From Patiria pectinifera (taxonomy: Eukaryota > Echinodermata > Asteroidea > Valvatida > Asterinidae): a stretch of 64,000 bases of DNA. Under the pieces are notes generated by a model. It was not told where the DNA came from, ran no database searches, and was given only the letters and a program-made list of their open reading frames with translations. A program made the position numbers and the translations under genes. Below, in pieces: positions 10,401-61,668 of the stretch. Position 1 is the stretch's first letter. The number at the start of each line of letters is the position of its first letter. The stretch is taken from assembly GCA_029964075.1 (NCBI GenBank), contig CM057133.1, forward strand, positions 18,934,699 through 18,998,698, read 5' to 3'.

Positions 10401-13400
10401 ATGTATGTACGTACGAAGCAAAGACTGCGCGGCCGGCTAGCGTTCGCTTGCATACTGTACGTCCATGTACATGTGGTGTACATTGAGCACGTACGTACGT
10501 GTACAGTCACGAATCAAATGTGTGCATGGTACTGGTACAATAAGGGGTCCCCAAAATGAACAGAGCGCATGCGTGCAGTCGAGAGGGGGTACTGGTATTG
10601 ATGTGCTATCGGGAAAACCCCTTTTTGATCGCGCATGTGCATCAATCATAGTCTATGTAATAGGCCACGGCGAATGCCGTGGTCTATTATGCGCGAACAG
10701 ATTTGCTGAGTAATTAGGCAAGACCCCGCGTCTTGACTTCCTAGATTTTGACCAATCAGCAGGCGCTTTCAATAGGTTTATCGGGTCTTCGGTCATTCAC
10801 CCGTTGCGCGTCATAGACATGGATTTAAAGAAAAAATCTCACGGCGCGCGGCGCTTGGATCATGTTACGCGAATGCGCTCCCGGCTGTTGTTGTATTACA
10901 AAACGCTGCATACGAATTGACCAATCACAGCGTTAGTCCTGATTTTGGGATGAAATGATGTCACGATTTATTAAGGTCGTCTCCGATTGGCTGGCGCGCG
11001 GCTTGCATAAATCTGCATGCTTTGACATATCAGACGTTAGAGAGGGGATGGCTCCGTGGATAACGGGTGATACTCAGACTACATCAATCACGGGCCGCGC
11101 CATAAATGTCGGACTTTTCACTCGCCACTTCTTGCAAACCGCAGAGCACGATGCCGACTTATACAGAGGAATTTGTGTGGTTTTGAGGAAATGGGACTGT
11201 AAGTAACACGCCGATATAGGCGAAATGGCGGCTTACAAAGTCCGGCTTAGAAATAAAAATGTCAATGGAAATGCATAAGAGACAATAGGGACTTTCGTCA
11301 GACGCCGATTTAAGCGATATGACGGTTTATACGTTGTCGGTTTAGCCGGAGTTTACTGATATTTGCATAACATTTTTTAAAAATTAGTGACGTCATCAAA
11401 AATGCGATTTTTCAAAACACATATAAGGAAAGGTTCGATCGTCATGAAACTTTGTGGGTAGGTAGATAATGGTACTATAATGCTAAGTCCAAAGAGCCGT
11501 CACAATGACGCCATCGGTTGATTTTTTATGATTTTTTTAAAAATATTCATAATTTTATTCTGCTTCCAAAATTGCACACTTCCTTTCATCGGATTGACTG
11601 TAAACTTGGTTCAAACTAAGACCACAATGACAAAATGTGCATTGAGAGGGGTTTCAAGATGACGTCATCGCAGGGCATGTGACGTCATGTGATAAAGCTT
11701 TATATTTGGAATTATTCTAAGCATTGTGAACATCCTTTAACTGTATTAAACACTCGAAAAAGTGACTGCAAACGACAAACATAGCATAAACATTTATAAA
11801 ATGCAAAAAGCCCTGTGTTCTGATTTCAATCAGACATACAGCTCTAGTTTTTTGGTACCATTTGTCATAAATTGCATAATTTTGTACACATTATCACTGT
11901 TTTGGGCCAAGCAAAGAGTATGGCTGGGTTGCTAAGGAATTTCTGCACTGGTCAGTTGTAGTTTGAGCAAGATGTGCCCAGTAGTCTTTGAGTAAGACAA
12001 AAAAAGTATTGAGGGGGGATTTTCTTTGTTGGTTGAGTGTAGTTTGGCGATAACTAACTACACAATCGCCAATAAAAAGGCTGCTTTAATTAGCCGGCAA
12101 GCATAGCACATTTGTAATGCTTTGAAATGTACATGTGAAGTACAATAGGGGAGGGTACAGTACATACTTTATGGACGACCCCTAAGATGGAAAATGATTA
12201 ATTGTTTTTTGTCAATAAACTATTAAGGGTAATCATTTTGGCACCTTGTTTTATATGTAAAATGCAAGAGTTATTTTGAGTTTTTATTTTAAGGCAGGGA
12301 ACTTCAGATGCAAGGTACTGAAAGGTCTTTTTTATGCGAGTTACCAAATAAGAAACTCATCTCCAAACCATGAGAAAGGTGTTTTGTTGGCCTTTTTTAT
12401 TTCATGGTTTATTCACTTAACTTCATGAGATCTATTGTGAGAAAAATCCAACCTTAATGATTTAAGTAGAATAACTGCACAGAGTTGACAAAAGACCCCC
12501 TCTAAATGTAACGCAAGTCGCCATGGAAGTGCCCTTAAAAATCATCTTAATTACCTGTGCCCAAAGCTGGGAATGAAACTGATTTCACTTTCTTATCCTC
12601 TGCCTGCTTCAGGGTCTTGAACACAATAGCTTTAATGTCTTCCGGAGTTTGAGGAGTAACGACATGGCAAATAGAACTGCACTGAAGTGAACCACCAGCA
12701 GTCCAATAGATCAGTTTCTTCGGGTCTGTTGACATGTTGTACAGCGAAAATGCAAAAGATATGGTTAATATTAATATAAATAATCTTTACATGTTTAAAT
12801 GCTTTTGGACTTATGCAAGAGAATGTGTACACTGAAAAAAAATTGTAAATAGTGAAAGCCGATGCATGCAAGCTGTGGAGACAGGGCATAGGGTCTGCAA
12901 ACCATGGTTTCTGTATGTTGCAAACATGGACAAAAAGATTATTTTAAAGGCAAGCTCAAAAGAAGGTCCCTTCAAATGGCCGAATTTCATATGGATGCCA
13001 TAACTCTAATTTCAAAGAGATTTTGAGGCCTGAAGGTGTAATTTTATTCATCTTCAAAGTAAATGGCAGAGTCACAGGTGTTAGGAGGTCATCACTCAAC
13101 TTATTTATTTGTGATGAGTTATACAGTGTTTCAACCTACTCCACACTGAAACTTCTGGGGAATAATAAAATGCTTTCAGAGATTTTTGAACTTGAACAAA
13201 TATTTGAAAAACCATGTTCCTTGTAGTCTCATACGTAAGGCACCATGTATTCTTAAAATAACGATCATTCTAAGCTAATATCACATAAATTCCTGTGGGT
13301 ATCCTCCTTGCAGATACCCAACATTAGCATCAGAAACAGTGAAATCCATGACAATCTTTATTGCTTTTCAGAGGGTTTAAATTTCTGAGTGTTCCATGCC

Positions 13401-22400: not shown

Positions 22401-25400
22401 GCCTTACTGCGGCACACACTCTCCATGTGGTGGTGTTTATCACAATGCCCACACCTGTGGCCATATGCTGCACATTCGGTTTTACGAGCGCGGGCCGGGG
22501 CGTTCTTCCCATGTCCTTTCTTGCCACAGTAGGAGCATGGGTCATGTTTCTCCTTGAGGTTCACTTGCTTGGCTTTTTTGTACGTGCTGCTGGTCGCATC
22601 CACTGAGTGTGAGTCTAGTAGTGATGATGCAGACCGTTTGCCTGCCTCTTTAGCTTCAATGAATTGGAAGACTTCCTCCAGGGTCATGTCTTGGTTCTTA
22701 TCGCCAAGGAGATCAAGCTGGATTTCAGGGTCTTCGATGCCTCGGGTGAGTACATCCCGCAGGATTGCTTCTGTGTAGTTAACGTCAATGTCACAGCCAG
22801 GGCATTTTATTAGGAACTTGCAAATTCCTGCTTGACCACGTAGGCGAGCTCCGAAGCTGCGCACTGTTTCATCACGATCCTGACGCATATTGTGAAGTGT
22901 CACTCTGGCAACCATAGTGTTCTCTTCACGCACAGCAAGTTTTTTTTATGGCAGCCAGTACCTCAGTTTCAGATTTGTTGGTGAGGCTACCACCCGCGGA
23001 TCTTGTGAGGTCCTTGCGCAAGGGTTCATCACAGCATTCAAGTAGTTGTACTACTTTGTCCTTGCCAGCTATCTTGGTGGCATCGACGTAATCTGACCAC
23101 CGTGACTTGAAATAAGCCCACTCTTCACTGGAGCCAGCAGCGGCAATCGTTGGCCTTTTGACCTTCTCAACCTTGGCAGCATGTCCAGAGGTGTGTACAG
23201 CGCTGTGGGCAGTGAGGAGTGCAGCTACGATAGCGGCATCGAAATCCTGAGTGGCGTAGTCACAGCCGGGGATGGGGCATGAAAAAAATAAGAACGCTGT
23301 CTCTTTGTGTTGGTCACTTCAACAATGAACACGGTCTGCAAATAGACAAACAGAAATGTAATATGATTAAGAAAGGTTGGTAATCCTCTACTGAGGTAAC
23401 AATTTAAGCTGCAGACGCTCAACGTGGCTTACACAGCTGCTGGGGTCGCTAGTCAGCCACGCAGGGAACGCAGCCGTATGAAAGCAAGGTCAGTACACGT
23501 TCACCGCTTTTCACCGTAAAGGTGTACACCACAGCAGGAACACCGACACCTCTTCCGATACTTGGCACGCTCAACCACCTTTGGCTGATGCTACTCCCAA
23601 CGCACGGCTTACTTATGTTCTCCGCTACAACGGGGAACTACACGCTACCGGGTCAAGTGCACACAGCTCGCCAGCAACAACCTTGCGATCTCGGCTCCCT
23701 AGTAAGCGCTACCCACGGCACAAAGCCGAACCTAGTAAACCACACACAAACCACAAACTCTACAAAGTTCGTGCTTACCTCTTCACCACACGTTTCACCC
23801 ACACAGACGACTGACTGTTGACTCACGAAATGCCATTAACGCACTGACTGTCTAACCACGTGTGTACGTCTCAACAGCACACAGAACAATGCTGGGCGAC
23901 GCGCAGCCAATCACATCTCTGCGCGCAGTCACGTACACCTATGCTCCACCCCGTGACATTGCTCACTGGGGGAATATCCCTAAATTGTGCTAGTCTCCTA
24001 ACCAGCCTACATGTTTATGGAACACTTTCGCCACAGTACAAGTCGAAATTTGCTTCACGGATGGAACGTACAAACACCAGCAGCTTGACCTCCAAGGACA
24101 GATCTTTCAGCCAGTAGTAAAATTGAGGACTCTTGCGTGCTTCCTGCATGCACCACTCATCCAAGCTTAGAGCCTGCAAGGCACCTGTACCACTGCAAAC
24201 TGCTCCTTCCATGCACCTTTCACCATAAGCATCATTGAGGAGTGCATGTAGACTTGCTGCAGTAACTTGATGTGCAAAACGAGTCTTTGTGACGTGGTGT
24301 GCCCGAATGAAAGAATCCGATGTGCCAGAGCTTGCAATATTAGCGTCTGTCAAGGCATTCGTCCAACCGCTATCTTCCAGCCACTCTCCAATGAGCAATT
24401 ATGAAACAAATTAAATATGGAAAATGCTAAAGCAAGCCCTGATTGTATAACCCTTGAATGAATCCTAGGCGTCTCCCTTCTTTTTTCCAATGAAATAAAT
24501 GTTATGAGAAAAAAAAAATATTTGAATGGACACATAATGTTCAATGTGGAAATCATCATAATACATTAGCAATTTGGAAATTGTGAAAACTAATTTACTT
24601 CGTGAGGCTTAGTGCAAAATCTCTTCCCCAGAAAAACTGGATCTGCCACTATTATGAAGAGACCAGAACGATCCTTGATTTCATTTGAACCACAAAGTAA
24701 GAATTTATAATTAACAAAGCAAGACAAAAACATTGCCTTATAATCAGTAGCCTAACTACTGTCCAAATTGCAGGTGTCACTTGGGACTCATTTTAGGTTT
24801 CAAATTATAAAAAGCAAAACAAAAATATTATTGTCGTCTCAAAATTGTGCGGGATACAGGCTACCCTCTTTTGCTCTTTAGTGACACTACTGGTTTTGAA
24901 GTTTTTACCTTACTTGAGGATTGCCATCTCAATATGGAGACCTCCCAGCATCATAACAATGGAGTCCTCTCCATGCGTTGTAGGCCAGGACCACTGCACT
25001 TGCTTGGCAAGGGCAAACAAAGGTTGATCGGCCGTAAGAATGGGAACTTGGCCTGGGTTTAGATGCCGAACAGCAGCACTAACAACATTCATTGAATGCT
25101 TGATCATCCCAACAGAATGGGCGCTATCTGGGAAGAGTGGCATTAAGGCGTTGATTGCAGGAGGGGGTTAATTCTTGCTGTCTGCTTGCATGGTACGCTG
25201 CCCATGATAGCCATGGTGTATCACCATCAACACCTTTCATCAAGGCTCTTTGTACCGTTTCCATACACTGTTTTTCTTCTGAAGTGGCCTTATTCACTGC
25301 CTCAGAGGTGATCGGGCCGTACATACTCGTACCCCGCAACTTCTGGTGCAATGAATTCCTTTGTCTTCAAAGCAGCTGGTGGTACAGACGAGTAGAAGGT

Positions 25401-28400: not shown

Positions 28401-31400
28401 GACAGCAAAATGTAACATAAAAGTAAAGATGACGATCATCGCGACGCACCGTTAATGAGCAAAACAGTGTTAATTCGCAAAGCATCAACTGTAAGAATAT
28501 CACATTTGTACATAAAGATTCTGTTCAACATTAAGAACAAAAGTGTCTTTCAAATCCAAAAAGTCTGCTGATGGGTGCAGAAATCATTTTGGAATGGCAT
28601 GCCGATGAAAACACTCTTGACTCAAACTTGACCAAAACAAAAGAGGCCCGTGACTACGCAATCGTCATTACAATTACAAAAGAATTAGCCCTAGGCTAGG
28701 CCCTAGGCTATGCCTAACTGTTAAGTTAAATCTGCATTCCATTTTTTACTGAACCATTCCTAAACCTTTCTAGATCAACAACAAATCTATAGTCGTTCAC
28801 ACTCACACTCATTCTGATAAAAGAAAAACATACTCGAACTTTAATTTAAAGCAAACAAATTCATAAACTTACCTGAAAACAACACAGCAGAAAACACTCA
28901 TGGAGGCTGCCATGTTGGATTGTAAAACAGAAAAGCGCCCTCAAGAGTTGGCTGCTACTAATATCATTACTATGATAATCATATCTTATCATAATTATAT
29001 CATTGTTTGAGCATGAATATACTGAGATAAAGATTAGAAAACATCCATATTTGTCATTTTTCTATGCAGGATATAAACTCGATGTTGAATTCCAGCATTA
29101 CATTTTTCAAAATGTAATCTTTGCCAGTCATTCCCCACCTTTTTACAAATGTAGGCCACGCCTACAAAATGGGTGGAAAATAAAGGTGTTAAAATGCTAG
29201 AATGTCTTATGTTATGTTTAAGTTTATGTCAAACCATAGAAAAACAAGGAAAATGGATGTTAAATACAGTTTGTGTGAGTTTTTATTTTTTGCATCCCCT
29301 TTTTCAAAAAACAAGCCCCGCCCACAAAATGGTCAAGATCCAGGATGGGTTCCGATCTTAAAATGATTCCCAGCCCATTTTGACCCCACATGCCAAATTT
29401 CATGCTTTCACCACAAAGTGCACGATTTGGCAAAAAATTGACCTAAGCAGCTCTACAAACAGTTGTCCTCCAATCATTCTACACAAAACCCCAGGTGCTA
29501 GGGGTTTTGTGCACAAACCTTAAAATCAGATGGCCTTATCATGCTCAATTAACTTCGGCAAAAACCGCAAGCCTCATCATAGGAAAAAGTTAAGACAGAA
29601 GTACCGGACCAATTTTTACAAGAAAGTGTTTGTAATGAAGATTGCTGGTGTGCAAACTAAGTAATAACCTCTGAGTGCACTTTTTGTGATGTTTGCTTAA
29701 CTTCATGGTTTGTTTTAAATCAAACTTTGATTCTGAAGTTTTTACAAGCCTAATCAATAGAATGTGAAATAGAATTGAAATTTATGGACTATGTGTAAAG
29801 TCAAGATAATAATCACCTTTTTTGCGAAGCGTATCACACTCTTTTGCAATTCTGTTTCCACCATTGGTCAGGATGGCCAGAGAAATTGGACCTGTAAAAA
29901 TCATTTTTTTACATATTAGTTTCTACAATTTGTGTTCAGTCGTGGAATCATTACATGTATATAATATTGATGCTGTCTGATACAAAGTTCCTCCATCTTT
30001 AGCTTTAGAGAAGGTGGATAGTCGACAATTTGACTTGCCAGTCTAGCAAGAATATCCTGATACATATAAAATGATACTATACATCGTACATATTCATGAT
30101 CGAGAGCCGAATTCTCGCTGGTCCATTCACCATCACGTGCCTGCCGCTATTTTTGCTCTTAATTACCAAGCATGCACGCGATCATGCACAGTTCACGCGA
30201 GTATACATGAGCAGTAGACTAAAGCACGGGTACTATCATGGAACTGTCGCGCGGGTGTACTACGCACGCGCGAACATCGCCCTGGATATTATAGTCTGGT
30301 TCCCATACCTTACAATTCCCTGACGCCCCGACGTCTATAATGTAGGTCAGGTAGCCCCACACCTACAAATAAACTTGATGGCCCTTCTCAAAGCTCGGCT
30401 TCGTTTACGGTTATGCTTTATGATTTAAAGCCTTTACTATTCTGATTAAATCTTTAAAAAATCACTTGCTTCATATATCATACAGTCTGATATTTCTGCA
30501 AGAGAACACAGACTGTTGTTGGGCTGGAATCTTCAAAGATAGGGACCCAAAAAGCAGGCGAAGCCAAAATGGAGAAAAAGCCGAGTTTTTGGAATTACCC
30601 TAGGCAACCGTCATCAGATTCGAAACAGTACATGAGGCAGCAAAGCTCGCCCCTAGTACGATTCGAGTGTATATACTTGATGCACAAAGTTGTCATTCAA
30701 TTTGAAGGTTTTTTTTAATGCAAGCAACGATGAACTCATTTTTAAAAATGTAAATACAACCTATTTATTCCCCGGAAATACCCGGGCATAATTCAGACCT
30801 CAATTGTGCTTTCATGTTGGTGTAGGCCTATAAGACTTCATGGTGTTGCCACGGGGTCACAATAGCTGCCCATGGTGTCCCCATGGGACACCATGACGTT
30901 TCTTTAGCTGTGCATGGTGTTTCCATGGGAACCCATGGTGTTTTAAGAGACCGCCATGGTATTTTAAGAGACCACCGTGAGAATCCTCAAAATTCCCATG
31001 TGTTTCCCATGGGGTCCCATGGGGTCCCATGGGGATCCCATGGCAGCGCCATGGGACAATTTTGTAAGGGATTATCCGAGAGTGTCGACGAAATCCATTG
31101 GGTGAACTTCGCACATTTATTTTGATCTGGGAACCAGACTAACCTAGCTATAACCATCAAAAGATGACGGCGCACGTAAAACTGAAGAATGTTGTGGACA
31201 ATAAAGATGCCTCCTCTATTAAAAATATATAGTTGTCTACAATGCAGTAGAAACTGAAATTTCCTGAGGTTGAGCAACATTTTTCTGGTGCGCTGGACAA
31301 GTTTCTCCTAATAGTTTATGCCGAGGTTGCATACTGCAACTATAAAATTCAGCAACTAAATATGTACGAGGTATAGTAAAAACGATGTATGTATAAATTG

Positions 31401-34400
31401 AAAAAAACTTAATGCAGCTAAAATCGACTATCCACCCTCAAACAGTGTTATTTTATTGTCTTTCAAAATCTACCTTGCAAAGCCAATCTTAGCCCAACAC
31501 TGTTGACAATGACATCAGTTGTTTCTTTCACAAGGTCTCCCTGTCCAACTTGAAGACAAACAGCACCTATCTTTGTCTGTAGCATTCCTGTGTCATCACG
31601 TTGTATGGGTGAGTAAGCTTGGCGGTCAGTGGGAGCTACAGAAATATGTGTGACAGGTGTTTGGTAAAGATGAGATCGTGGAACATCAATTAAAAAATGA
31701 TCAGTTTGATGATCAAGGTGCAAGATTATAGAGTTGACACACATGATCTTCTGTTGAAATGGCAGAGTGTAATGCATTCAATCATAAGACAAAAGTCCAA
31801 TCACAAATCAAAACGCAAGCCACACCCCTACAGTCATGTGGTTGCTAAGGCAAATCGTCTGCCGTTGTTAAGCAAAGCTAATCTGATTACGCTATAGCAG
31901 AGCAGTGAAATTTATGCACCACAAAAAACATGGCCTTTTGAACGTTGTGTTTCTTAGAAAATATGCACAGTATGATTGAGAAGTTAAATTAAAACGGAAG
32001 AAAAAATTTTAAACTTCATGTCAGTGAACAAATCGCCGTCATCGATGCCGAAACGTCAATACTCCTTACTGGTACAGCTGACCTTCAAGTCTGGAAGAAA
32101 TCGTTCGCAAACTTCCCCAAATCTCTGTATTTATATGAATTTCTAGGAATTTCATTTTTTTTATTTAACGAGTAGTTGAACACTTATATGATCTAAGTAT
32201 ATTCCGAATTTCAGCTTAATCTGTTGTTGCAAACACTAATATAACAATTTGAACCATCTCCATGGAAAATTTCGACGATGATTTCTGTCGACCCAAGCCA
32301 CATGCATTGTTCAGCAAAGCGCCTTAAGCCCGGTTCATACTCTGCGCAAAAGCGAAAGCAAACGCAAATTTGTGACGTCATGAGGAGTATTCGCGCTGCG
32401 AATTTGTAAAAGTTGAACATTTTTTAACTCGAACGAATTTCGTAGCGAATGTTTCATGACGTCGAATCGCTTCGCATTCACATTCGCATGAAGTATGAAC
32501 CGGGCTTTAGGCGCTACGGTTGACCGATTTCGACCAAGCCACACAATATCGTATTGTAGATTAGCATATTCATTAGCGTCACTCAGCGTGTTTTGGCCTG
32601 GGTTTCGGTATCACCAATGGAAGCCGGCAAAAAGGGTGATATTCATCAATTAATAACTTGTGAAGGAGGCTTTTCTCAAAATTTTTACTGCACACCATAA
32701 TGGATAGGAACCATATTGATGAGGCTTATTTTTGCAATTTCAACGAAAAGTAATGAACATATCACAACGATTTTTGGCACATACTTGGATCATTATAAGG
32801 AAAATAAATCCTGTTGCATGAAAATACGGTCTTCCAAACTGGAGAAATTAATTTTCAAAGATTTCGCCCGTCAACGTGAACATGTGTGTGCACATGTAGT
32901 TTCATTCAAAATAAAGTGCTACGCAACCTTTAGAAATCGCCCTTCGCAACCACTAGACTGCCTAATCAAGTCGAAAGTGACAGAGATGAACAATGACAAA
33001 TCAATGCCTGTATCACAGTTCATTAGAAGAGCTTGTCGTCTGACTTGAGACTGGGTGACTCATGACTGGCCTGTGCAGACCTGTGATGACTTACAATGTA
33101 CTATTAATGTTGACACTGGAAATGAGAATCTTCCCAGTACATTAAAGCAAAGAAAAACAAATGTTGGGCATTAAAAAAAACTGACAAAAATATTCGAGGT
33201 CTTTGAATGAAAGGTGATATTCCCAAGGAACATGAAGGACATACTCCGATGCCTCAGGTTTTTATACATGAACTTTTACGTCACGTGATCAGTACTACTA
33301 CTAGTACTCAACCACTGGAATTTCACAATTTAATACGGTGGTGTAACAAAGCAAAGTAAAACGCAATTTATGCAATATATGTTTGCAATAAACAAGTGCA
33401 AATCCAGTCACCTCTGCCAATGTCGGTGCCATCTTCGTCCTCCTGAAATTGGCTAAATCGATCCATCACAGCCCTTTTGAATACATCACAAGTTGGCTGG
33501 TCATTGTTGGTGAAATGAATCTCCGTCACGGTGGGGTTAGGCATGTTTTTACAGAACTCAGCCACGGCGTTAAGGATCTGCTTTGCGGCAAGGTCAACTG
33601 GGAAGCCATAAACACCAGTGCTGACGGCTGGTATGGCGATAGACTGCATATTCAGCTTATTGGCCAGTTTCAGGCAAGCAATGACACCATCATACAGGAA
33701 ATGCTCTTCATGGCTCGACTTATCATCATCTGGAATAGATGTGGCTCCTCCATGATGTGGCCATCTAGGTCCTGCAACGTGAATAACTCTCTTGCAGGGT
33801 AGTTTTCCGTTAGTGGTGTGAACAGGCTCACCCACATACAATTGGCGACGCTTGGACCTCAATATTTGCTCACACTCAGTCTGAATGACTCTCCCACCTG
33901 TGAAAGATATGAAGACAGCTAGACAATCAACTCATTCATGCCAAATGCTTCAAGTAATGTATCAAAGCCCACATCAGCCCAACTGTGAATAAACTCCACT
34001 ATTTATATTGCAATGTATAATGTAATGCATATATCTAGTTAGGTTTACCTGCTTCGACTACAGCAGCTGCTAGTCCTCCCACATGTTTCAGTTCTGTGTT
34101 TGTAGCATTCACTATGCAGTCTACTTGTTGCCTCGTCAGGTCGCCTCTGCATACTTTCAAAGTGAAGCCATTTGGTAGAGCAAATCGGCAGAGTACCCTC
34201 GTGGATACCATTGGTCTCACTGCTGCACCTCCTTCAACTTCGGCTTCATCATCGCTGTCTTCCTGCACATTCTCTCGGATAACACACTGGTATTCATTCT
34301 CAAGCGATTCCAAAAACTTCTTTCCTTTGTGTTCTCGGAAGAGTTGGGCCATTCCAGTCTTTGAGACCGGATAAGGCTGCTCCTTGATTCTATCTATCAG

Positions 34401-37400
34401 AGAAAAAATGACCTGCTTTGCGGCTTCCAAACCCTCTTCATTTCCTTGAATCACAAATCCCTTGTGGCGGCCACTCCTCTGTGGCTGGATTTTCACAAGG
34501 TTTTTGGCATTCTGCTTTGCTACGTTTACCAAATCTGCGCAATGGAATTTGTCGATGAGACATATTTTGTTCTTGTTTGCTGGAACGATTTTCTTTAGGA
34601 TGACATTGTCTTTCAAGAAATCTATGATTTTGTGCTTTGTCTCGCCCAAGTTAGTCTTGAATCCTGCAAGTTCAACAATGTTTCCTGCAGAACAAGAAAA
34701 CAAAATGGGAAATTACACTTTAACGACTCCAAACCATAAGAACTTAACATAAGTTTTCCGATACAAAAGTGCACCCGCATACATGGAAACAGAATCCAAA
34801 ATAATAAGACAAACTATATAAGTTTGAATGGAGGTCCACAATAGGTTTTAAAAATATAGGAAAATCAAATACATGTATCCAACAGTTGAGACTGGCATTC
34901 CAGAGCCACGTAAACCAAATCAAATTGGAAACGGCACATGTCAACCTGAGTAGATTTTTGGTTTCCAACAGATGAACTTAACACACGAGTAGTGGATACA
35001 AATAAACACACGATTTTAGCAACAAACTGCCACTGTGCAACTCTTTTTTGTGGTTGGTTTGTTTTCGAATAGTACCTCCTCGTCCAACATTTTTCTGAAG
35101 CAGTTTCTGACCCACAACGGTCAACAAACAAATCCTAATCCAAGTTCGTGACGGCAGAAATGAAGAATATAAGGTAACTACAGAAAACTGTCTACTTATG
35201 ATGTTGCATGAGGAAAAGAATACTACACTTCTCTTTCTTTCACATTTTTACAAAAAGAGCATGCTAAAACCACAACTATTTCTTTTTTATGGGTGGGCTC
35301 TGAGACATGTCATACAATAATTATTTCTCAAAATTACATGTATGTATGTGAACAAAAAAAAACTACATTTGAGTTGAGTTTGGCTCATGACTATAGAGCA
35401 ACTTCTAAAATCAAGTTGCTCCCGAGTCTGAACGAACTTGACAGTCGATTTTTCACCATCTAACGCGTCTTATTACTCCCAAGGCTACCATTTTTTTATT
35501 GACTGGACTACGAACATGGCGCACAATTTCGCAGGGTCGGAGAACGAAATAAAACTAAAACTTTACAGTTCTTGTTTTTAACAAACGAAATGCTTCATGT
35601 AGTACGTGTAATGTTCATGTTCCCTAAAACGCAATGTGACACGGCCACTAATTATGTTGCATGACACCAAACATGGAGCACCTTGATTTTCTTTCTTCCA
35701 AATGTTAAAAATCCCGCGTCGGAAATAAAAATAACCATAATTTTCTCATTTTTTCCCTTATAATCTCGTATTCAAAGTCGACAGTTTCGTAATCCAATAA
35801 ATTAAAAAAAAATGTCACCTAACAGTTTGATCACATCAGACTATTCGTGTTCTTCATTCCAGTCTGTACTTTGATTTGGCTCAGTGGAACAGTGGAATGC
35901 CTGTCTGAACAGAGGGTCTATTTCTCAGTGGACTGTTTCCCTGAATTTTACCTCCTTTGTTGCTGATGGCTGCCATAACAAATTTCTGTTTGTTGATCGC
36001 ATCAAGGAGCCTCTGGCCGGTTTGATTCTGGAGAACATCTATTGCAGCTTGGCCTCTGATAGGAATGACATCCTCTTCTATTTCTCGAATGAAGTATGCT
36101 TTAGCCTGGGTTGTATCTTTCTTGCTGGCACCATATATGATGATCTTGCCATCGTCGGATCCATTGCATGCTGCTCGAATGCCCTGCGACCATAGGATCT
36201 CATGGATTTTGTCGATAACATTCCGAACGAACTTTACCTTGTTAAATCCTGTTTTGAGTTCTACTTTCTCCAGATTGTCCATTTGCCTGCGCATCGACAG
36301 CTCTGCATCCCAGACGATCTTACGTGATCCTTCAAAAGTGAGTTTGATTTTATCTTGCAAAGACATGACAGTGATCTTCAGGTTTGGAAAGTCATTTTCA
36401 ATTACATCCTTGATGCCAAATATGATAAAAGGCTGGGACTTCTCTTCTGTCAAGAGGATGTCTTCTTTTGTTTCCTCAGCTTCATACTCAGACTTTGCTT
36501 TCAACTCCTTAATGATTCTATTGATATCAGTACATCCTTTGTCAACAAATTGCTGCTCCCCAACCAGAGTGAGTGAATGTTTGCTAGCATCCAGCTGAAT
36601 GGAAAAGCTCTGGGTGTTCAGCTGATTTATTTTATCTATGACGTCTTTCCAAAATGGCGGCGGGACTACAATTCTGGATGACTTACACCTGTTCAGGAAT
36701 TCAGTCAGAACTTGGGTAGCAGTTTCAGACCATTTGAGCCAAGATGATTGTCGCTGTCCATCTCCCAGTAGAGGTTCCAGCCTAGCTGTTGTCTTATCAT
36801 CACCATCTGGCCATTTCAGAATGGCATTTGCATCCCTTAGCTTCTGAATCAAAGTCTTCCGTGTGTGTTGGCCCTTCCTAAAGATGAACTCCATGATGAT
36901 GGGTTCTTGGACTTGAACACTGACTGGCTTAGGGACATAAGGAGTATAAGGGACATCTAATTGACTCAGTCTTCCCAGACATTCATGGTACTCTTCAACC
37001 AATAATAGCTCAGTGCCGCCAACCTTGTAGGGACCCCCTTTCGACAGAACGTCACCAACCACTACAGAAAAAATTAATGCAAACACAATCCGATAATTTC
37101 AGATTCAACAGTAAAATTTACTACGAATGCAACAATTTCAGAAATTAGATCATATTTTTGAAAAAAAAACCAGTAAAAAATTCTGCATTCATGAAACTTT
37201 TTCAACTTTCAGTGCCTAAAAATAATCCTGGTAAGTCTAAAACATGTAGGCCAACACAGAATTTTCCTCAGAATAAAATTAAAGCTTCGTGTAAGGCGGT
37301 CCCATGAAAACACAATATAACTACAAGTAATTTGACAATGTTTCTGCAGAAGGAGCAACATGAAAGAAAAGAAACGGTTGTTCTTCATAAAATGTTGGCA

Positions 37401-40400
37401 TACCTTTCCAGTCTTCAAAGTAGACAACAGCCTGAGTGTCCGTTGGTCCCTGCTGTACGTCTCTGACACCGGTGCCGCCACTTTTCTTTTTGTTGTCGAA
37501 ATACAACTCAATCATCTCCAAAGAAGCTTTCGGTGAGACCCCTTCAACGCAAATATAGTATTTAAATAATTCAATGTATATGTTGAAACTTGCATGTTAA
37601 TACCGTTTTCACAACATGAACACCAGAGTTAAAACTTAAAATAACGACAAAGAATTGAAACTGACAGATATCCAGGACTGATCCTGGATGCATAGTGTAC
37701 CAACATTCCACTATAATCTTCCATGCAAATGTGGACATGGCTGAAAAGTGGAAAACTTATGAAATTTTCAAAACTACAAGCATCAAATGCGATACTAAAT
37801 TTAATGGGACATTAAGATCTTTCACTTGATCGATGTACTGTGCCAGGGAGATGAAATATAGTGTACATGTACATGTTTTTTTTTGTTAATAAACAGTTTT
37901 GGCGGCTAAAATTATGGATTTTAAGCTGCCATTTTGGCAGTTTTTGGTTTATACGAAATGCAAAAAGTGTTACTGTTGGTTTTTGTTTTAATGCCAAGCA
38001 AAGGTTATATTTTATGGCAAAAGAGTTTATTGTTTGATTGTTAGTTTCTCATAATAATATTTTAACTTGTATCCAACACGAGTGGACCAACCGTAATATG
38101 AGTAACTGTAGTGTGAGCAGCCAGCTTTTTTCTTTCTAGCATCCATAACAAATTTTGTCTACACATTTCATTCTAAGCAAACTACTGAATCAAAAGAATC
38201 AACAAAATTAGCTGGCCTAATGTTCCAGTCTTAAGCAGGACCTTCTCAAAGCCTTTGGCATTTGCTTTCAGTGACAGTATTTTCAAAGGGTGCCGTTCTG
38301 AAATAAGGGAGCATATATACAACTTTAACTTTGTTGTTGCCATCTGAAAAAGTCTTGAATATTGGGTTTTATGCAGAAAAAAGAAATATATTGTCCCACT
38401 AGTATGACGGCCAAGCACACATTTTATCCATATGCTCAGTATCTTACATGGATTTGTTGGGTTTTATCTAAAAAAAAAAATGACTAATTAACTGGCTTTA
38501 TGTCTCACCTTCCACGAGAATACAATCTGACTCCTTCACCTGCTCTGCTCTCAAATAGGCTCCACTCAACGCTTTTGAAGAAATTCTTTTGATTACTTTC
38601 TCGAAGTCTACAAAACGTTTTAAAAAATAAGCAATCAGTTAGATTTCAGTACAAATTGAACAATGTGTAGTAACGCAAGGACTAATGAAACACAATGAAG
38701 AATGTAGTTATTTGCTTAATAGAAATCATACCTTTTGGGTGTGAGATTATTATATTACTCTTCATATGGGGGGGGGGGCTGAATCGGCCCCGCCTAAGAT
38801 CTCGGCCATCGAGTGACAAAAAAGTATGAAACTCGGTACATGCATAAAACAACTAAACATAAACATACCCAAGAAAGTTCATGAATATAGGTCAAAGGGG
38901 TTTTTGAATTATGGCTAATTACTCATTCATATGCACGAATGGTCATTCTGCTTTTTTTCCTCGCTCGTTCATTTGAGGGTTAATGCTTAACATTGAAAGA
39001 AAGCAATACTCTATGATCTCGATTTCAATTCAAAAGCTGCCTAGTCATCTTTTGATTTGCGCCCAAATTCGGCGTCCATGATACAAACATTCTACTTTTC
39101 TCAAAAGAACACCAACATCAAGTGCCATGATTTCACAGGATGCTTGACACTATAATTCAATAAAAATCAAATAAGATATTTCATTAAAAAGTAGGTTGTT
39201 TTGTTTTTTAATGTTTGCAATATTACCTTTAAGTAGGCTGAATAAGAGCAAACCTGTCGAAGAAACTACATGTACTGTACATTTTGACTAAATGTACAAT
39301 TAGAGTAAATTGGGGGGATCCTCGTAACTGGGTCCCATTGCCAGGACTAATGCATGGAAAGCACCCTCTTTTGAAACTACAATCAATGTTTGTTTCCTTC
39401 CGAATAGTACCATTTCAGGCAGAATTATTTCATAGGGTCTTTGCTAACAGTCCTATCTTAACTTTGAGCAAAGTTTCTTTAATTTAATCAGCGACGGTGA
39501 GTAATTTTCCAGGTAACTGTAAATTATCGTACCCCACAGTAAACATATATAATGTTAGGTTTTGCCCTTCACCGGGTGGGACTCGAACCCACGACCACGA
39601 TCTGCACTAGAAAGCAGAAGGTCGTGGGTTCGAGTCCCACCCGAGTGATTTTTTCCAACTTTAACTCGGGAGGTAACACTGAGTATACAGTGTTAAAAAA
39701 AAAACGTCGGTGAAGGGCAAAACCTAATTTGATTTATATCACCCCGACGCAAAATTCCATCTTATAATAGTTTATGCGGTACCCGCTGCTATGTACATCA
39801 GATTCGAACCGGCCAACCGATCCCGTTAGCTCGGTGGTCGAGTGGTAAGACATCTGCACTAGAAAGCATGAGGTCGTGGGTTCGAGTCCCACCCGAGTGA
39901 TTTTTTCCAACTTGAACTCGGGAGGTAACACTGAGTATACAGTGTTTAAAAAAACCTCGGTGAAGGGCAAAACCTAATTTGATTTATATCACCCCGACGC
40001 AAAATTTCATCTTATAATAATATATAATGTTGTCACTAGGCATCATGCATGTGCAGTCATGTGTACCTAACTTTTCTTAAAGAACGTGACATGCATAAAT
40101 AAAAAGCAGGAGAAGTTACTTTCAAAGAGAAAGTTATACCTTGGATGTCTTTGGTGAATGTGCAGAGGGCTGTTCCAGGCATCTCACCATATTGTATCTT
40201 GAACTCATCCGTACCAGACTGAATCTCAATGAACATTGTCACAAGCTCTAAATTACACCCATCAGGAATTCCGCTCAGAAACAGATATCGCTTCTTGACT
40301 GGACGAGGGCGAGGTTTCTTCTTTACACACAGTCGCACTGTGAGATTAGCTCCTCCAACCTTATGCTTTCTTGCAATCACTTTGGTAGCAACTAAAAGAA

Positions 40401-43400
40401 TTTAAAGAAAAACATTGCTTAAAAAACATAATGACAGAACCAAGAGTGCCATTTATTTTCAAACGGTCACCTCACCTCCAAACAAATGGCCCCATTCAAC
40501 CCGTGTAATTATGCCTACAAAAGCTATGCCAATATCGGGATATGCGGGTGTGCATTGTGTTCCCTCACATTAGTAAATGTAGATTTCTTTTCATTGTACC
40601 TTTTACTTTTTTTTGTTTTTTTTCTACTCAGAACTTAGTGACATGAAATGACATACTTGATGCATTCTCAAATGTAATTCTGATGGCTCCAGTCTTTTTG
40701 TCATGCTCCCATGTCTTGATGTCACCTCCTCCAGATCTTCCGGGATTCTCAAAATGCAGCTTGAGCACCTCCTCTGACGATTGGTTGAAACCGGTAACCT
40801 CAACAAATTGTTCCTCGTCATCCCCTTCTTCCCGTTGGTCTTTAGTCATCTCCTTAGTAAATGATTAGTTAATAGAGACATTGTATTTATTGGTGCATAA
40901 ATAATAGCATACTGCACTGAACTTTTTACATAAAGTAATTGTACAAAAGCTAATTGACCAAATCGATATAGCTACCTTCATTTCAACATCTTGCCAAAAT
41001 AGCTTTTCTTCATCTGATTCACTGTTGCTTGGAAAACTTGTGTCTTCGATTCCTTCCGCCAATGAATTAACAAACCGACGAGCTATCATCAATCCTTCTT
41101 TGTTCCCTTGAATGAAAACGCCCGTTCTACTGCCGGATTCTGAAGCGATCTTCATGTGGTTGTGCTTGTGTTGTTCTGCCAAGCTGTCCAATGACTTACC
41201 ATGACGCTTGAGGAGGACATCCATTTTGCTCTTACTCATGTTAATGAAATCTTTGTTGATGACGTTGGCTGCTAGGAATTCAAGTATGCTCTGTTTCACC
41301 TCTTCCAAGCTAGTCCTGAATCCAGCCAGCTGTACCACATCTTAAAAAAAGAAATTTTTGTTGAGGTTAACCTGCATGAATAATAGATCACTTTTTCCCA
41401 ATAGTCCTTAACGGTACGTATAAAAAATAAAAAGTTCTTACCTTCTGTGGTATTGATGTTTACCGCAGTAAACTTCTGCTGGTTTGTTTCATCAAGCACA
41501 TGCCTCCCTTCTTTGCTCTTTAGAACAGAAAGCACAGTCTGGTCCTTGATTGGAATGACATCCTCTTCTATTTCTTGATTGATGTACGCTTTAGCTCGGA
41601 CCCTATCCTTCTTAGTGGCACCTAATATGATAATCTTGCCATCATCGGATCCATTACATGCTGCTCGAATGCCCTGTGAACGCAATATCTCCTGAATTTT
41701 GTCGATATGATTCTGAACGAACTTGACTTTGTTACGTCCCATTTTGATTTCTTCTTTCTCTAGACTGTCCATTTGCCTCCGCATCGACAGCTCTGCTTCC
41801 TGGACGATCTTACGTGATCCTTCTAATACGAGTCTGATTTTATCTTGTAAGGAGATGACCACGATCTTCAGGTTCGGAAAGTCCTTTTCAATTTTATCCT
41901 GGATGCCACATATAATAAAATGCTGGGACTTCACTTCTGTCAAGGTTATGACTACTTTTGTTTGCTGTGCTTCGTACTTGGCTTTTGCTCCTAACTCCGT
42001 AATGATTCTATCAATATCAGTATATCCTTCGTCAACGTCCTGCTGCTCCCCGACCAGACAGACTTGATGAGTGTAATCATTCAGGTGAATTAAGAGGCTC
42101 TTGGTGCCAAGCTGATTTATTCTCTCAATGACGTCTTTCCAACATGGAGATGGTACTGCAATCATGGATGACTTACACCTGCTCAGGAATTCAGTCAGAA
42201 CTTTGGTAGCAGTTTCAGACCATTTGAGCCAAGATGATTGTCGCTGTCCATCTTCCAGTAGAGGTTCCAGCCTAGCTGTTGTCTTATCATCACCATCTGG
42301 CCATTTCAGAATGGCCTTTGCATCCCTAAGCTTCTGAGTCAAAGTCTTCTTTGTGTGTTGGCCCTTCCCGAAGATGAAGTCCATGATGGGTTCTTGGACT
42401 TGTACAGTGACTGGCCTAGGGACATGAGGAGTTGGGACATCTAATGGACTCAGTCTTCCCAGACATTCATGGTACTCTTCAACTAATATTTCAACATCCC
42501 CGACTTTGTGGGGTCCCCTTTTCGCGATAACATCATCAACAACTATTGAAAAATAAAGCAAACATTTTTGTTTAGTTGATGGGTAAATGAATTTATTTAT
42601 ACAGCCAAGTATGGAATAATATACTTTCTAAACTTGTTTTGGCAAGGTTTTGTTAATTGAAACTGGTTTTATTTGAATGTTTCAGCTCCTTATATGTCAA
42701 ATGCTCAAAAAGTGACACACTTCTGAAAGTAAATTCAAATCAATGTGTGCATCATTTAACATTAAAATTATGCATGAAAATAATTAGCCTAGATTTGTAT
42801 AATTCTAAATGCCTTACAAGGCAGGTTGCTTAGATCCAATATTTGACGAGATCGTAACTGCTTTGGAAATTCTTATGGGAAAGGTGCCAAATTTCAATAA
42901 CTCCTAAAAATGGCCGCGGCGTAATATAATACACATATTGTAGCATATTTAACATATTTTGGGGATTTTATTTAGATATTCTTAACTTGCAAAACAATTT
43001 CTAAAGCATATAAGTGACTGGATATTTATGAGGACATATGAACGATCCGAATAGCTATACCCTATAGTTGCGCACATACATTTATTTCCCAAACTTTAGT
43101 ATTGATGAGCTTCAAATTCACAAAGTTACTTAATGCTGGCACGGTTACCCCTATATAATAACTTCAAAGATATCCCCCCAAAAAACTGATTTAGGTTGTT
43201 CATCATGTCAATGTCAAACATTTTCTTGAGCACATATACGGATTTCCTGAGATTTTTTTAAAGGAACCATTCGCTGAACTCTTAACGCCAATTTCCAGAC
43301 ACTTTTTTCCTCCCTTTCCTTTTTGGACTATATTTCACAATGCCACTATTGTTCAGATGATTTTTATTAGGGAAAATGTGCAAGTAAATTACTTTGTGAA

Positions 43401-46400
43401 TTTGAAGCTTATCAATATGCCTACTGAGGTTTGGCGAGTCTATAGCCTACTGGACAAAATCTACGAAAAAATAAATGCGTGTCAACTTTGGGGAACAGTG
43501 GTAGCCATTTTGGATCTGTAATCACAGTGTTCTTATAATTATCCAATCAGTTGTATAATTTACAACGTTTTTTTGGAAAGATATGTAAATATAATCCAGA
43601 AACCATTTTAACGTATTAAAATAAATGTGCATAAATTAATCGCTCGGCGTCCATTTGGATTTATTCAAATGAGGTACCCTTCCAAAACATTTAAGGTATT
43701 GGCTCTTCTAAATCAGCTAGCTCTGCATGGTCCATTCTATACAGGGCAAATGTGGTCGAAATGTGAACTAAAAAGGATACAGGCATGAATACCTTTCCAG
43801 TCTTCGAAGTAGACAATAGCCTGAGTGTCCGTTGGTCCCTCCTGTACGTCTCTGACACCGGTGCCGCCACTTTTCTTCTTGTTGTCAAAATACAATTCAA
43901 TCATCTCCAAAGATGTTTTTGGTGAGACCCCTTCAAGACAAACATCTTTCTTTGTAAAATTATGTAAATATATTTCAAATGGTTATGAAGTAAAAGATGT
44001 AGTTTGTTTCTATCGGAATTCTTTACTTAAGAGAGAGAGAGAGAAGTTACATGTATCTAAAAACATTACCCATGTTGTAAATCGTTTTCAAAATGGTTAT
44101 AAAGCAAAAGAAGTGTTTGGTCATGTCACTCGGAATTATTTTATTTTAAGAGACAGGTGAGTTATCTGCAAAACATTATCCTCGTTCCAACTACTGACAA
44201 CAATTCTCACCTTGCACTAGGATAGAGTCCGACTCGTGCACCTTCTCTGCTGTCACAAAGGATCCTTGCAACTTCTTTGTACAAATGCTTTTGATGACTC
44301 CTTCCATATCTACAATCGAAACAGTTTATTACTAATTAGTTTATTACTAAAATAAAATGTGTGCTGAACAAAATAATGCCCTGCTAGCAATGCTGAAAGG
44401 TTTGCATGCTGTTCTGCTCCTGTAAAATCAATCTTAACCTGAACATTCGAACAATACATATATGAGTTTTTAAATGTATATGGGCTTTAAAATTAAATTC
44501 ATAATACAATTCAAAAATTACAACTTGATATCAAAACTATTGTTTTCTTACAATAATTATTATGGTTGACAATAAAGACAAAACGGCACGTTTCAACTTT
44601 AATCCAAACAAATCACCTGGGATATCCTCTGCAAATGTGCAGATTGCTGTTCCAGGCATCTCACCATATTGTATCTTGAACTCATCCGTACCAGACCGAT
44701 TCTCAACGAACAGTGTCACAAGCTCTGAGCTACACCCATCAGGAATTTCGCTTAGAAGCAGACATCGCTTCTTGACTGGACGAGGGCGAGGTTTCTTCCT
44801 CACGATCTGTCGCACTGACAGAGATGCACCATCAACCCTATGGGATCTGGCGATAACTGAGTGCGCAACTAAAACATAATCACAAAAGGTTTCAACAAAG
44901 TAACTAACATGTAGATTAAAGAATTGAAAAGTAAAGCGAGACCAGGTCAACTGTATAATCAATTTGTGATACGCTTTTTTCTTTTTTTTCTTATCAACGT
45001 TAATTTTAAAGCAGTCTTTTCTTCATTGTGTTTCAATGAAGTTGGATTACTTTTAAATGCAGTATGCACGCTATACTACGAGGTGGTATTTCTAGGAACA
45101 TCATTAATGAATTACACAGAATATGATTATCCAAATCGGGAAGCACCAGACTTGATTAACTACGCACCCGTTTTAGTTGAATGTTTAGATGGAGAATAAA
45201 CGTGTTTTCCTAATACCGTGTGTATTACCTGAAGAATTCTCAAATGTCAATATGATGGCTCCAGTCTTGGGGTCGTGTTCAAATGTTTTGATGTCACCTC
45301 CTCCAGATTTACGAGGGGTCTCAAAATAGAGCTTGAGCATCTCATCTGACGTCGATGGCTTGAAGTCAGTCACCTCAACAACCAGCTCATCATCTTCACT
45401 TTCTGAATCTGAAGAGTCATCTTCTGAATCATGCTAAATTTGTTATAATAATGAAACGAAAATCTCAACTACATATATAAAAGCAGAACAAGGTAAATAC
45501 ATGGTATTTTGTTTACGATAATCCAGACCCATGACTGAAACTCGTTCGAAATACAACGTCAAAATGACAGTTGCCTCCAAGGTAGCAATAGCTACAAGCA
45601 CTCTAGGAATACCGTAATTGTCAAATATGTGTGATTTTTTTCAAGACATGCTGTTAGCATGTGGCCTAGGAAACGGGACTTCGCACTGCAGGCTACTTTC
45701 ATGTTACTTTTTTTTTAAAATCAGCCCCGTTTGAAACAATAATTGTACAGCGCCCTTCTCTGACTTAGACAGGTGGAAATGTGATTTGTTCCCCCCTTTT
45801 TTTTAGAAGACATTTTTTAGAAAAGTGTTCTTCAAACCTTTCATAAATAATTCCGATTGGAAAAAAAATGAGCCAAATGAATTTTTTTTAAAAAGAATTT
45901 TCACTTGTTTTCAGTTTTCCTCATAATGGATCATTCTGCATCCACTTTTGGAAAAGAAAAAGGTTTTATCACTTTTTCTGATTGGTGTGAGGTGCTGAAT
46001 AATGAAAGAAACATGTTTTGATCTTTCTGAAAGCAAAATGGAAACAAATTTAAGTATGTGCTTCCTAAACTTGAAATTAATTACATCTTTGGCCTGGTAA
46101 AACTTGACTTTTTTAAAGTTTTGTTTAGTTTTGTTGTATGGTTTTATTTTTTACCTTTTCTGCTGGTAGTGTTTATTAAAAGTCAATTTCAGTTGAAATC
46201 GAAAAGTCTTTGCCAGAGAATGGATAGGAATTCCGAATCAGTCTTCACAATGAAAGTCTTTCTGGTTTTGGCATGAAGTCGTCCAGGGCGTGTCTTGTTG
46301 GGATTACTGTTGGGCATTCTAGTGAATAGTGTCTGTGTTCTTGAGGAACCTCTAGTTAGTGAACTGGATGACGGTGGTGCTTGTTGGAAAGGTCACGTTT

Positions 46401-54779: not shown

Positions 54780-55063
54780 TTACTGGAATTTGATGAGGTA
54801 TTCTGGGTAGGCTTGTGCATCATGAAAGATAACATAGATGCCTGGCTGGTTTACATTGTCCACCACGCAGTCGTACTGTTGGTCCGGATGACTTGGTTTG
54901 TTGGGAGGAGTTATCATCCCGTGATTGCCTCTGATGTAATCACCGACCAGAACCTTTGTCAGGTACATGTGCTGTACACCGTTTGCATCAGGCTTTGCGT
55001 ATTGCGGTTGTGCTGAGTAGTTAGCATTCACAGCAAAGTAGGTTCCATTTCCGTAGGCAGTTG
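54780..55063 (-). CDS. Gene A last exon: ART domain second half and stop
   Basis: A 284-nt exon starting AG|CA in phase 1, coding TAYGNGTYFAVNANYSA (catalytic Tyr), MYLTKVLVGDYIRGN, and ending PEYLIKFQ and TAA. Nothing is missing from the catalytic half, so the enzyme core looks complete. Confidence 0.87.
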
Positions 55064-58960: not shown

Positions 58961-59899
58961 TTCCACTTAATTGGCCTATCGCCGTTTGCGCGTTAACAAC
59001 ACCCCCTAGACTACCCTATGGACTTTTTGTACGTTAAGTTTTGTTTGTCTTAGATGTTGCGTGTTCCGCGTCCATTTGTATATCATGTAATTGGAAATTA
59101 TTTCACAAGCTGCGTTGACGCAAGATCATTGTTTTGATTAAAGTCAAGATCTGAGTAGATTTTTTTTTTTTGAAGTTTGAATTGTATTTAAAGACAGCAC
59201 ACTCATGTTTGCTTTAATCCATCCTTGATCTGGTTACAGTGATATTGTGAATCAAATTGTGCTGGTGTAGGCTTACCTGAACCATCTAAAGGTGTATTAA
59301 AGTCCCCATCGATAGTCTTATTCCTAACGTTTCTCCACAAAAATTTAGATGGAGATTAATATAATACCTTTTAAAGGTGCAAGGCCTGATTTCTGTTCTC
59401 CACCTTGGACCATCAATCAGACACTATAAGTATACACAAGGATCAGTGTCGCCGGTTTTGAAATTAGAAGCATTTTTATGAAATGGAGAACTGTACTTGT
59501 GTTTTTTTTGTATACCATGTACACGTACCATAAATCAAGTTTTTCGTTTATATCCACACACAACGTATCTCAGCTGTATCAATCAAGCAATGCACCTTAG
59601 TGTCTTCAGTATTAATGTACCATTGAACCAGTGATGTAGACTACATGTAGAAGAAATCAGGTGATGATTTTTTTATAATCACTGATTCAATACAATTGTT
59701 TTAAAAGAATTTATCAATTTATTGAGTATTGTGGATGATGGTTATTATAGGAACCTGCCAATAAATTCCTTAGTTATGGGTGTAAGGTTGCATGGGGAGA
59801 CTTAGACACATTTTTAGACATATCAATATTTTGAAAGTTAAAAACAATTCCTACAAATCTGATTTAAATTTAAAAAAAAATATGATTGAAATCAAATAA

Positions 59900-60375
59900 A
59901 TGGTCACCATGATGTCATCATGTTTTGTGCATATTTTGAAGGCTTATACCAACAGATCTACAGGTCTGATTAGGTTGAACCCTGGTACGTATCTAAACCG
60001 GAATGTGTCATAGACAAGAATTAAAGTGACGTTCTGATGATGTCATCACATGTCATGTGGTGTCACATTTAAAGATGATTTTTCTAAGGCCTATATCAAC
60101 AGTACTATAGGTCTGATTTGGTTGTAACTGTACCAAAACCAGGATGTTATAGATGATATTGGAAATGACGTCATGACGACGTTATCACACGACTAGTGAA
60201 GTCACATTAAAGGTGGACTTTTCTAAGGCCTATATCTACAGAACTATAAGTCCAATTGGTTGTAACTTGGCATGTACCTAAACTGGGATGTGTTAGAGAT
60301 AAAAATGTAAGTGACATCAAGACAACTTCATCATGTGTCATGCGACGTCACATCACATTAACCCGAGCCCCCTAA
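59900..60375 (+). repeat. Diverged TGACGTCA-type units
   Basis: Three units with GGCCTATATCTACAGAACTA, GTCC(A)ATTGGTTGTAACTTGG and TGATGTCATCA-type pairs. Same order as the 6.5-11.9 kb array but clearly more diverged, so an older copy. A G-run follows at about 60381-60393. Confidence 0.7.
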
Positions 60376-60556
60376 GGGCTGGGGGGGGGGGGGAGTTCCA
60401 AATACCACAGAATACTACATGTGTTGTGCACACTTGTATGTAAAAATGCATACTACAGGTACAACTCAGTAGTATTTTCTATTGTGTAGCTTAATAGGTG
60501 AGTTTAGGGTTAAGGGTGCATTTTTTGAAGCCGAGGGTGTACATGTGGACCCTATC

Positions 60557-61429: not shown

Positions 61430-61659
61430 GCCAAACTTTGACGTCATCATGATGCCATCATTTGTCACGTGACATCAGAAGGTGCACATTTTCAAGGCCT
61501 ATATCTAGAGAACTTCACGTCCTATTGGGTTGAAACTTGGTGTGAACCTACAGATGAATTTTTATGTGACCTCATGATGACGTCATCACACATCATGTGA
61601 GATCACATAAACGGTGGATTTTTCTATGGCCCGTATCTAAAGAACTATACTTCTGATAT
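61430..61659 (+). repeat. TGACGTCA-type unit interrupted by the 61.67-kb MITE
   Basis: GGCCTATATCTAGAGAACTT, CCTATTGGGTTGAAACTTGG, ATGATGACGTCATCAC. Same family as 59900-60375. The MITE sits directly at its end. Confidence 0.65.
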
Positions 61660-61668
61660 CACTTGAAC

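Follow-up and report, generated by a model that had tools for sequence, protein, structure and literature searches.

The PARP14-like gene on the minus strand of the window (the whole 64-kb stretch of DNA analyzed) is probably a composite of two paralogous lineages of one gene cluster, with exchange still going on. Exons 1–2 and a first six-exon block (block 1, exons 3–8) would descend from one RRM-KH module lineage, and a second block (block 2, exons 9–14) together with the macro exons would descend from another, represented in the cluster by PARP14-like genes with a single block. Exon 8 ends at a GT, whereas its homologue in single-block relatives continues towards a macro domain; a 123-nt intron then joins exon 8 in frame to exon 9. 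The event was likely a deletion or an unequal exchange among neighboring paralogs, followed by further exchange.

The 17-exon gene model (49212–29817, minus strand; Table 1) has GT-AG borders at all 16 introns, and its reading frame stays open over 1889 codons. The initial annotation had paired exons 3–8 one to one with exons 9–14, and its sizes and phases stand: block 1 (45433–40976) consists of exons of 205, 252, 99, 138, 1101, and 365 nt, and block 2 (40852–34049) of exons of 196, 252, 99, 138, 1110, and 636 nt. Block 1 is entered and left in phase 0, so the argument that copying it would preserve the frame also holds.

Table 1. Exons and related features of the PARP14-like gene, in window coordinates.
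Feature	Position	Strand	Description
Exon 1	49005..49212	(-)	From ATG; first half of RRM-like unit 1; Pfam RRM_PARP14_1 33.3 bits with exon 2
Exon 2	47609..47754	(-)	Second half of RRM-like unit 1 and acidic/serine linker
Exon 3	45229..45433	(-)	Block 1 unit a (RRM); RRM_PARP14_3 56.1 bits with exon 4
Exon 4	44617..44868	(-)	Block 1 unit b; protein identity to exon 10 72%
Exon 5	44211..44309	(-)	Block 1 unit c; protein identity to exon 11 53%
Exon 6	43793..43930	(-)	Block 1 unit d (RRM); RRM_PARP14_3 63.8 bits with neighbors
Exon 7	41442..42542	(-)	Block 1 KH exon; KH_PARP14_1 and KH_PARP14_2 matches
Exon 8	40976..41340	(-)	Truncated relative of exon 14
Junction intron, 123 nt	40853..40975	(-)	Phase 0, GTAGCT...ACTAAG; length and phase identical at 20.47 Mb
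Exon 9	40657..40852	(-)	Block 2 unit a (RRM); RRM_PARP14_3 41.4 bits with exon 10
Exon 10	40140..40391	(-)	Block 2 unit b
Exon 11	38509..38607	(-)	Block 2 unit c
Exon 12	37404..37541	(-)	Block 2 unit d (RRM); RRM_PARP14_3 55.4 bits with neighbors
Exon 13	35952..37061	(-)	Block 2 KH exon; alone KH_PARP14_2 30.1 bits, KH_PARP14_1 18.5 bits (below cut-off)
Exon 14	34049..34684	(-)	KH-like part, then start of macro domain 1
Exon 15	33412..33897	(-)	Remainder of macro domain 1; Macro 99.2 bits over exons 14–15
Exon 16	31474..31635	(-)	Macro domain 2 start (by eye)
Exon 17	29817..29891	(-)	Macro domain 2 continuation (by eye)
Probable next macro exon	12555..12725	(-)	Beyond a 17-kb intron containing a retroelement

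The gene has the PARP14-type traits of N-terminal RRMs, a KH array, and macro domains. The architecture of seven RRM-like units proposed earlier is retained, but when the units are tested one by one, five of the seven score above the curated threshold of a Pfam PARP14 RRM model; of the two that do not, the middle one in block 1 reaches 20.6 bits where 27 are required, and its counterpart in block 2, tested alone, gives no match. The doubled KH region is borne out, as the spliced protein matches both KH_PARP14_1 (39.3 bits, cut-off 21) and KH_PARP14_2 (40.2 bits, cut-off 27), each in two stretches. Structure prediction for the block 1 KH exon (two sequences) gave a mean pLDDT of 45.6 and is excluded from the argument.

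Downstream, a tblastx comparison was mostly noise and served as a pointer to the probable next macro exon, which, checked separately, has relatives at 19.008 and 20.423 Mb (95 and 97% identical). There is no second PARP exon within the 64-kb window. A PARP catalytic exon on the same strand (C5:18923987-18924265), 10.4 kb beyond the window, is the candidate 3' end of this gene; the exons would be joined in one mRNA, whose putative product is a mono-ADP-ribosyltransferase in which the front that binds RNA or partners would be doubled. Vertebrate PARP14 (BAL2/ARTD8) likewise has RRM units and a KH array followed by macro domains, and the PARP14-specific Pfam RRM and KH models match here. Human PARP14 contains three RRMs, eight KHs, three macro domains, a WWE, and an ART (PMC13224862). 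The window gene differs from vertebrate PARP14 in its seven RRM-like units and in two KH arrays of two ancestries, and its putative catalytic exon lies outside the window.

Compared directly by BLASTN, four of the six exon pairs (3, 4, 6, and 7 versus 9, 10, 12, and 13) match at 76.5–94% identity by run, while neither the 99-nt pair nor the exon 8/14 pair is detected at the DNA level and matches in introns stop within about 40 bases of an exon. In the protein alignment suggested as a check, the six pairs are in order 69, 72, 53, 94, 71, and 40% identical. The BLASTN comparison and the checked exon structure exclude chance or mis-drawn exons. By far the lowest similarity is that between exon 8 and the start of exon 14, a pair whose dS is about 2.9, against 0.25–0.55 for the KH exons and for exons 3–6/9–12; the overall dS is 0.49. 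The lower values suggest that at least part of the blocks has a more recent shared ancestry or was exchanged.

The initial annotation had proposed that the six-exon block was copied inside this gene, and this claim is not supported. AU tests reject sisterhood of block 1 and block 2 in all four data sets (KH exon; exon 8/14; exons 3–6/9–12; all joined), with p values from 1.6e-4 to 2e-101, and a recent intragenic duplication was rejected on the trees. Each block has its closest relatives in other genes rather than in its partner block. Block-1-type rows form one clade with support of 100/100 (six rows; joint tree and exons a–d tree), and block-2-type rows form another in the exons a–d tree (nine rows; 100/100). 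Including introns, block 1 is 91–94% identical to the locus at 20.47 Mb and 83–89% identical, in pieces, to that at 19.46 Mb, and the single-block genes at both 19.02 and 20.41 Mb match window positions 35494–38163 at 87–88% identity. The exon 8 protein is 76–93% identical to five block-1-type copies versus 40% to exon 14. The rejected sisterhood, the clade support, the intron-level matches to other genes, and the exon 8 identities argue for the composite origin, as do the exon structure with its open frame, the in-frame continuation of the exon 8 homologue at 19.46 and 19.96 Mb, and the 123-nt join. The trees omit KH copies that are partial or contain stops (19968448, 19975255, 19977043, 19983914, 20488656, and 20489201) and all but one or two copies of a second cluster; row 1902_a0 is omitted from the A–D and joint trees, and row 507 from the joint tree.

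Several observations count against the composite origin. These include the lower dS outside exon 8/14, the lack of a single supported clade for block 2 in the KH tree, and the position of the 20.47 Mb second KH exon and exon 14 relative, which cluster with block-1-type copies. Moreover, a tree constrained to unite the four junction-bearing block 1 copies is marginally rejected (p 0.032), a two-block gene at 19.44 Mb has its homologous GT and AG out of phase, and the 20.47 Mb locus, the mirror mate of the window gene, is possibly an allele rather than an independent gene.

An older intragenic duplication, in which a two-block gene predates the expansion of the cluster and the single-block genes lost either block before gene conversion, is unlikely. 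The block order and phase suit a tandem copy, and block 2 has been lost at least once, as a decayed exon 9 remnant lies behind block 1 at 20.01 Mb. In addition, the single-block copies at 19.46 and 19.96 Mb nest within the junction-bearing block 1 group of the joint tree (95/94). However, in these two copies the exon 8 homologue continues in frame towards a macro domain, which would not be simply restored by loss of block 2. The second cluster, with copies at 5.03 and 5.07 Mb that have an exon-14-type exon and with KH places spaced like single blocks, also speaks against this history, as does the rejected sisterhood.

The join between exons 8 and 9 is in frame with conserved splice sites both in the window and at a second locus, 20.467–20.478 Mb, where both blocks are present through the second KH exon and the join is again 123 nt long. 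Because exon order and junction recur in this separately assembled region, the junction is not a one-off mis-join. The intron that precedes exon 9 in block-2-type genes was considered as a source of the junction intron and discarded, as the alignment was not convincing.

It is quite improbable that the blocks instead belong to separate transcription units, the first a block-1-only gene with its end inside the junction intron, the second a PARP14-like gene that has block 2 and starts independently. The exon 8 frame does reach a stop inside this intron, where the window has AATAAA and the 20.47 and 20.01 Mb loci have ATTAAA, and the splice pair out of frame at 19.44 Mb would also fit two units; a short isoform terminating in the intron is conceivable on these signals. 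However, a search for relatives of exon 1 between the blocks found none and the in-frame join is conserved at 20.47 Mb in donor, acceptor, length, and phase, making two complete separate genes unlikely; the acceptor, moreover, reads TG instead of AG at 20.01 Mb, where block 2 is missing. An assembly artefact that wrongly placed two genes or alleles in tandem is the most far-fetched reading: the whole cluster is mirrored about 19.73 Mb, like a haplotype joined in reverse, but a mirror join does not yield a same-strand tandem, the tandem order is identical in both arms, and the overall dS between blocks is too great for alleles.

The mirror symmetry of the cluster gives an opposite-strand mate for 54 of 57 places, against a mean of 4.8 and a maximum of 20 for 64 shifted centers; this count omits places at 4–5 Mb and on other chromosomes, weak macro matches, KH fragments, repeated DTC pieces, and the exon b search. 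In a longer-range mirror comparison with window positions 59500–62500, a dispersed repeat overwhelmed the matches. Side-by-side duplication of PARP14-like genes is common, with at least four together in Branchiostoma floridae (PMC4245714). The clustering resembles that of lancelets and sponges, but a single chromosome here has many more copies and includes a probable composite gene.

The cluster also includes Deltex-type genes. According to PMC13224862, DTX3L has one RRM, five KHs, a RING, and a DTC, PARP9 and DTX3L jointly resemble PARP14, and all three cooperate in vertebrate antiviral signaling. At 19.45 and 20.00 Mb in the cluster, block-1-type front ends precede Deltex-type RING-DTC exons, so the PARP14-like and DTX3L-like genes of the cluster may share interchangeable front ends. 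The window gene differs from DTX3L in having no DTC match among the best genome-wide candidates, and its neighbors' fronts have more RRM units. A more specific proposal, which we advance tentatively and consider rather unlikely, is that the window gene is a natural PARP14 fusion with a front from the lineage serving its ubiquitin-ligase partners, PARP14-like and DTX3L-like genes drawing on one swappable set of fronts. It is suggested by the RRM-KH type of block 1, which elsewhere precedes RING-DTC or macro-RING-DTC exons, and is made less likely by the 19.44 Mb two-block gene, which is out of frame at the homologous splice pair. If it is correct, a single chain would here contain contacts that in humans are made between separate proteins. 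Homologous RRM-KH fronts on PARP14-type and Deltex-type genes of one cluster would bear directly on the origin of the DTX3L front, and would also show that exchange between neighboring genes, and not point change alone, alters how many RNA-binding units these enzymes have. At 20.00 Mb, macro, RING, and the DTC start occur in one 831-codon frame. Among the best candidates genome-wide, none of the DTC pieces lies in the window, and at least 25 of at least 33 fall within 18.9–20.7 Mb.

Rebuilt exon by exon, the minus-strand PARP14-like gene comprises 17 exons between 49212 and 29817; all 16 introns have GT-AG borders, the phases agree, and the open frame runs for 1889 codons without a stop. The exon sizes of block 1 (exons 3-8) and block 2 (exons 9-14) are those given in the initial annotation. 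Its front is a doubled RRM-KH region in one open frame with two ancestries, and the in-frame junction between the blocks is common to this gene and its mirror mate at 20.47 Mb of the same contig (C5, CM057133.1). Both blocks are recognised by the Pfam models for PARP14 RRM and KH regions, and 5 of the 7 RRM-like units exceed a cut-off when scored singly. At the protein level the six exon pairs are, in order, 69, 72, 53, 94, 71 and 40% identical. At the DNA level BLASTN detects four of the six pairs (76.5-94% identity), and similarity reaches no further into the introns than about 40 bases from an exon. Synonymous distance is 0.25-0.55 for exons 3-7/9-13 and jumps to about 2.9 for exon 8/14. 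Within the intron that separates exons 10 and 11 lie two 170-bp copies (95%) and an inverted piece (39569-40019); a tRNA-like fold without a clear anticodon at 39827-39901 suggests that this repeat is tRNA-derived.

The window corresponds to C5:18934699-18998698. A search of the 613-Mb genome placed relatives of its exons in a first cluster at 18.9-20.7 Mb of C5 and a second one at 4.4-5.3 Mb. The first shows mirror symmetry around a centre near 19.73 Mb, over about 1.6 Mb near the contig end: of 57 places entered by hand from the search results, 54 can be paired with a mate on the opposite strand to within 40 kb of the expected sum, whereas 64 shifted centres gave 4.8 on average and 20 at most. 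Alignment of four mirror pairs, across introns and intergenic DNA as well, gave 91-99% identity in the longest pieces and 89-95% as means over every piece; synonymous distance in three pairs is 0.10-0.13. Either the region was duplicated in inverted orientation or a second haplotype was joined to it in reverse.

The initial annotation proposed that the six-exon block had been copied inside one gene, which is not supported by trees built for each exon set from 15 or 16 copies (window, neighbouring loci and one or two from the second cluster). Forcing the two window blocks to be sisters costs 256 log units for the KH exon, 251 for exon 8/14, 213 for exons 3-6/9-12 and 761 for all joined, and the AU test rejects sisterhood in all four data sets (p 9e-59, 1e-53, 1.6e-4 and 2e-101, respectively). 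The joint tree groups block 1 with the first blocks at 20.47 and 19.44 Mb and with the copies at 20.01, 19.46 and 19.96 Mb (6 rows, 100/100). In the tree of exons a-d (exons 3-6 and 9-12 of the window gene), block 2 joins the copies at 19.02, 20.41, 19.38, 20.08, 19.23 and 20.23 Mb, along with the second blocks of the 20.47 and 19.44 Mb loci, these nine rows separating from the six block-1 rows with support of 100/100. DNA comparison with introns agrees with both placements: block 1 is 91-94% identical to 20.47 Mb and, in pieces, 83-89% to 19.46 Mb, and 35494-38163 shares 87-88% identity with the loci at 19.02 and 20.41 Mb. The KH tree contains no single supported block-2 clade. The second KH exon at 20.47 Mb is 74% identical to either window block, and because this exon and the exon 14 remnant cluster with block-1-type copies, the second block there is itself mixed; the genes have evidently gone on exchanging sequence. 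Compared with their nearest copies, the two window blocks have a dN/dS of 0.4-0.5, a value consistent with moderate constraint and no proof of anything further.

At the junction, window exon 8 ends AAG|GTAGCT and exon 9 follows exactly 123 nt later in phase 0, an arrangement identical at 20.47 Mb. The homologous GT and AG also exist at 19.44 Mb, mutually out of phase; other GTs are in phase, and the frame may be kept by another route or lost. The 20.01 Mb locus retains about 60 nt of exon 9, its acceptor AG has become TG, and a search of 9.8 kb there found no RRM or KH exon other than those of block 1. The in-frame join is thus found in two of four loci, the two being mirror mates of each other. 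Constraining the block 1 copies of all four loci to a single clade is marginally rejected (p 0.032), which favours loss or exchange should the join have a single origin. The homologue of exon 8 at 19.46 and 19.96 Mb continues in frame towards a macro-like stretch (18.7 bits at 19.46 Mb, below the cut-off of 22). The junction intron contains AATAAA in the window and ATTAAA at 20.47 and 20.01 Mb, motifs that leave room for a short isoform.

Among the copies read, only the window gene has two full blocks followed by macro exons. The 20.47 Mb mate (C5:20467043-20481337; L037, L038) retains both blocks through the second KH exon and a broken exon 14 relative; a PARP exon lies 2.4 kb further on, with no macro match between the two. 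At 19.44-19.45 Mb, exons a-d of the second block precede a frame that begins like the KH exon and continues into a pair of RING fingers and then the beginning of a Deltex C-terminal domain (DTC; 30.3 bits, cut-off 25). A single frame at 20.00 Mb, with a DTC start of 26.5 bits (same cut-off), shares the strand of the 20.01 Mb block 1 and lies downstream of it; strand and distance suggest that both belong to one gene. Of 33 DTC pieces among the best candidates genome-wide, 25 map to this cluster and none to the window.

Candidate further exons of the window gene, and its Deltex-type neighbours
Feature	Position	Strand	Remark
Macro exon	12725-12555	minus	beyond 17-kb intron containing retroelement
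PARP catalytic exon	10.4 kb outside window	same as window gene	
Two RINGs and DTC start	L040:5541-6000 with L043 (C5:19.452-19.453 Mb)		after second RRM block
Macro, RING and DTC start	L044:499-2994 (C5:20.00 Mb)	minus	831-codon frame

Both blocks would be transcribed as one mRNA, and the doubled front may bind RNA or partner proteins, by analogy with human PARP14, whose KH-containing fragments bind RNA or partners in vitro in experiments described in PMC10450202 and whose contact with DTX3L is attributed to KH domains in PMC13224862 and PMC11080071. Viral pressure may drive the turnover, as PMC13224862 holds for PARP14 genes in general. Side-by-side duplication of PARP14-like genes is already described in PMC4245714. 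In a literature search that covered neither preprints nor most subscription journals, and hence is weak evidence of absence, neither a doubled front end nor a front common to PARP14-type and Deltex-type genes was seen described.

The gene probably extends beyond 29817. The macro exon further downstream has relatives at 19.008 and 20.423 Mb (95 and 97% identical), the next piece may lie at 5397-5296, where the match is weak (26%, E 0.001), and the catalytic exon outside the window would form the 3' end. The retroelement frame in the 17-kb intron (19156-21333, minus) matches reverse transcriptase, RNase H and integrase zinc-binding domains, and adjoining frames (18063-23318) look related to it. 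Another PARP catalytic exon, at 54780-55211 (minus), probably forms the 3' terminus of the single-block gene that lies upstream at 19.02 Mb. A dispersed repeat of about 520 bp at about 61662-62197 recurs in at least 39 further places at 97-99% identity (40 of 5330 candidates scored).
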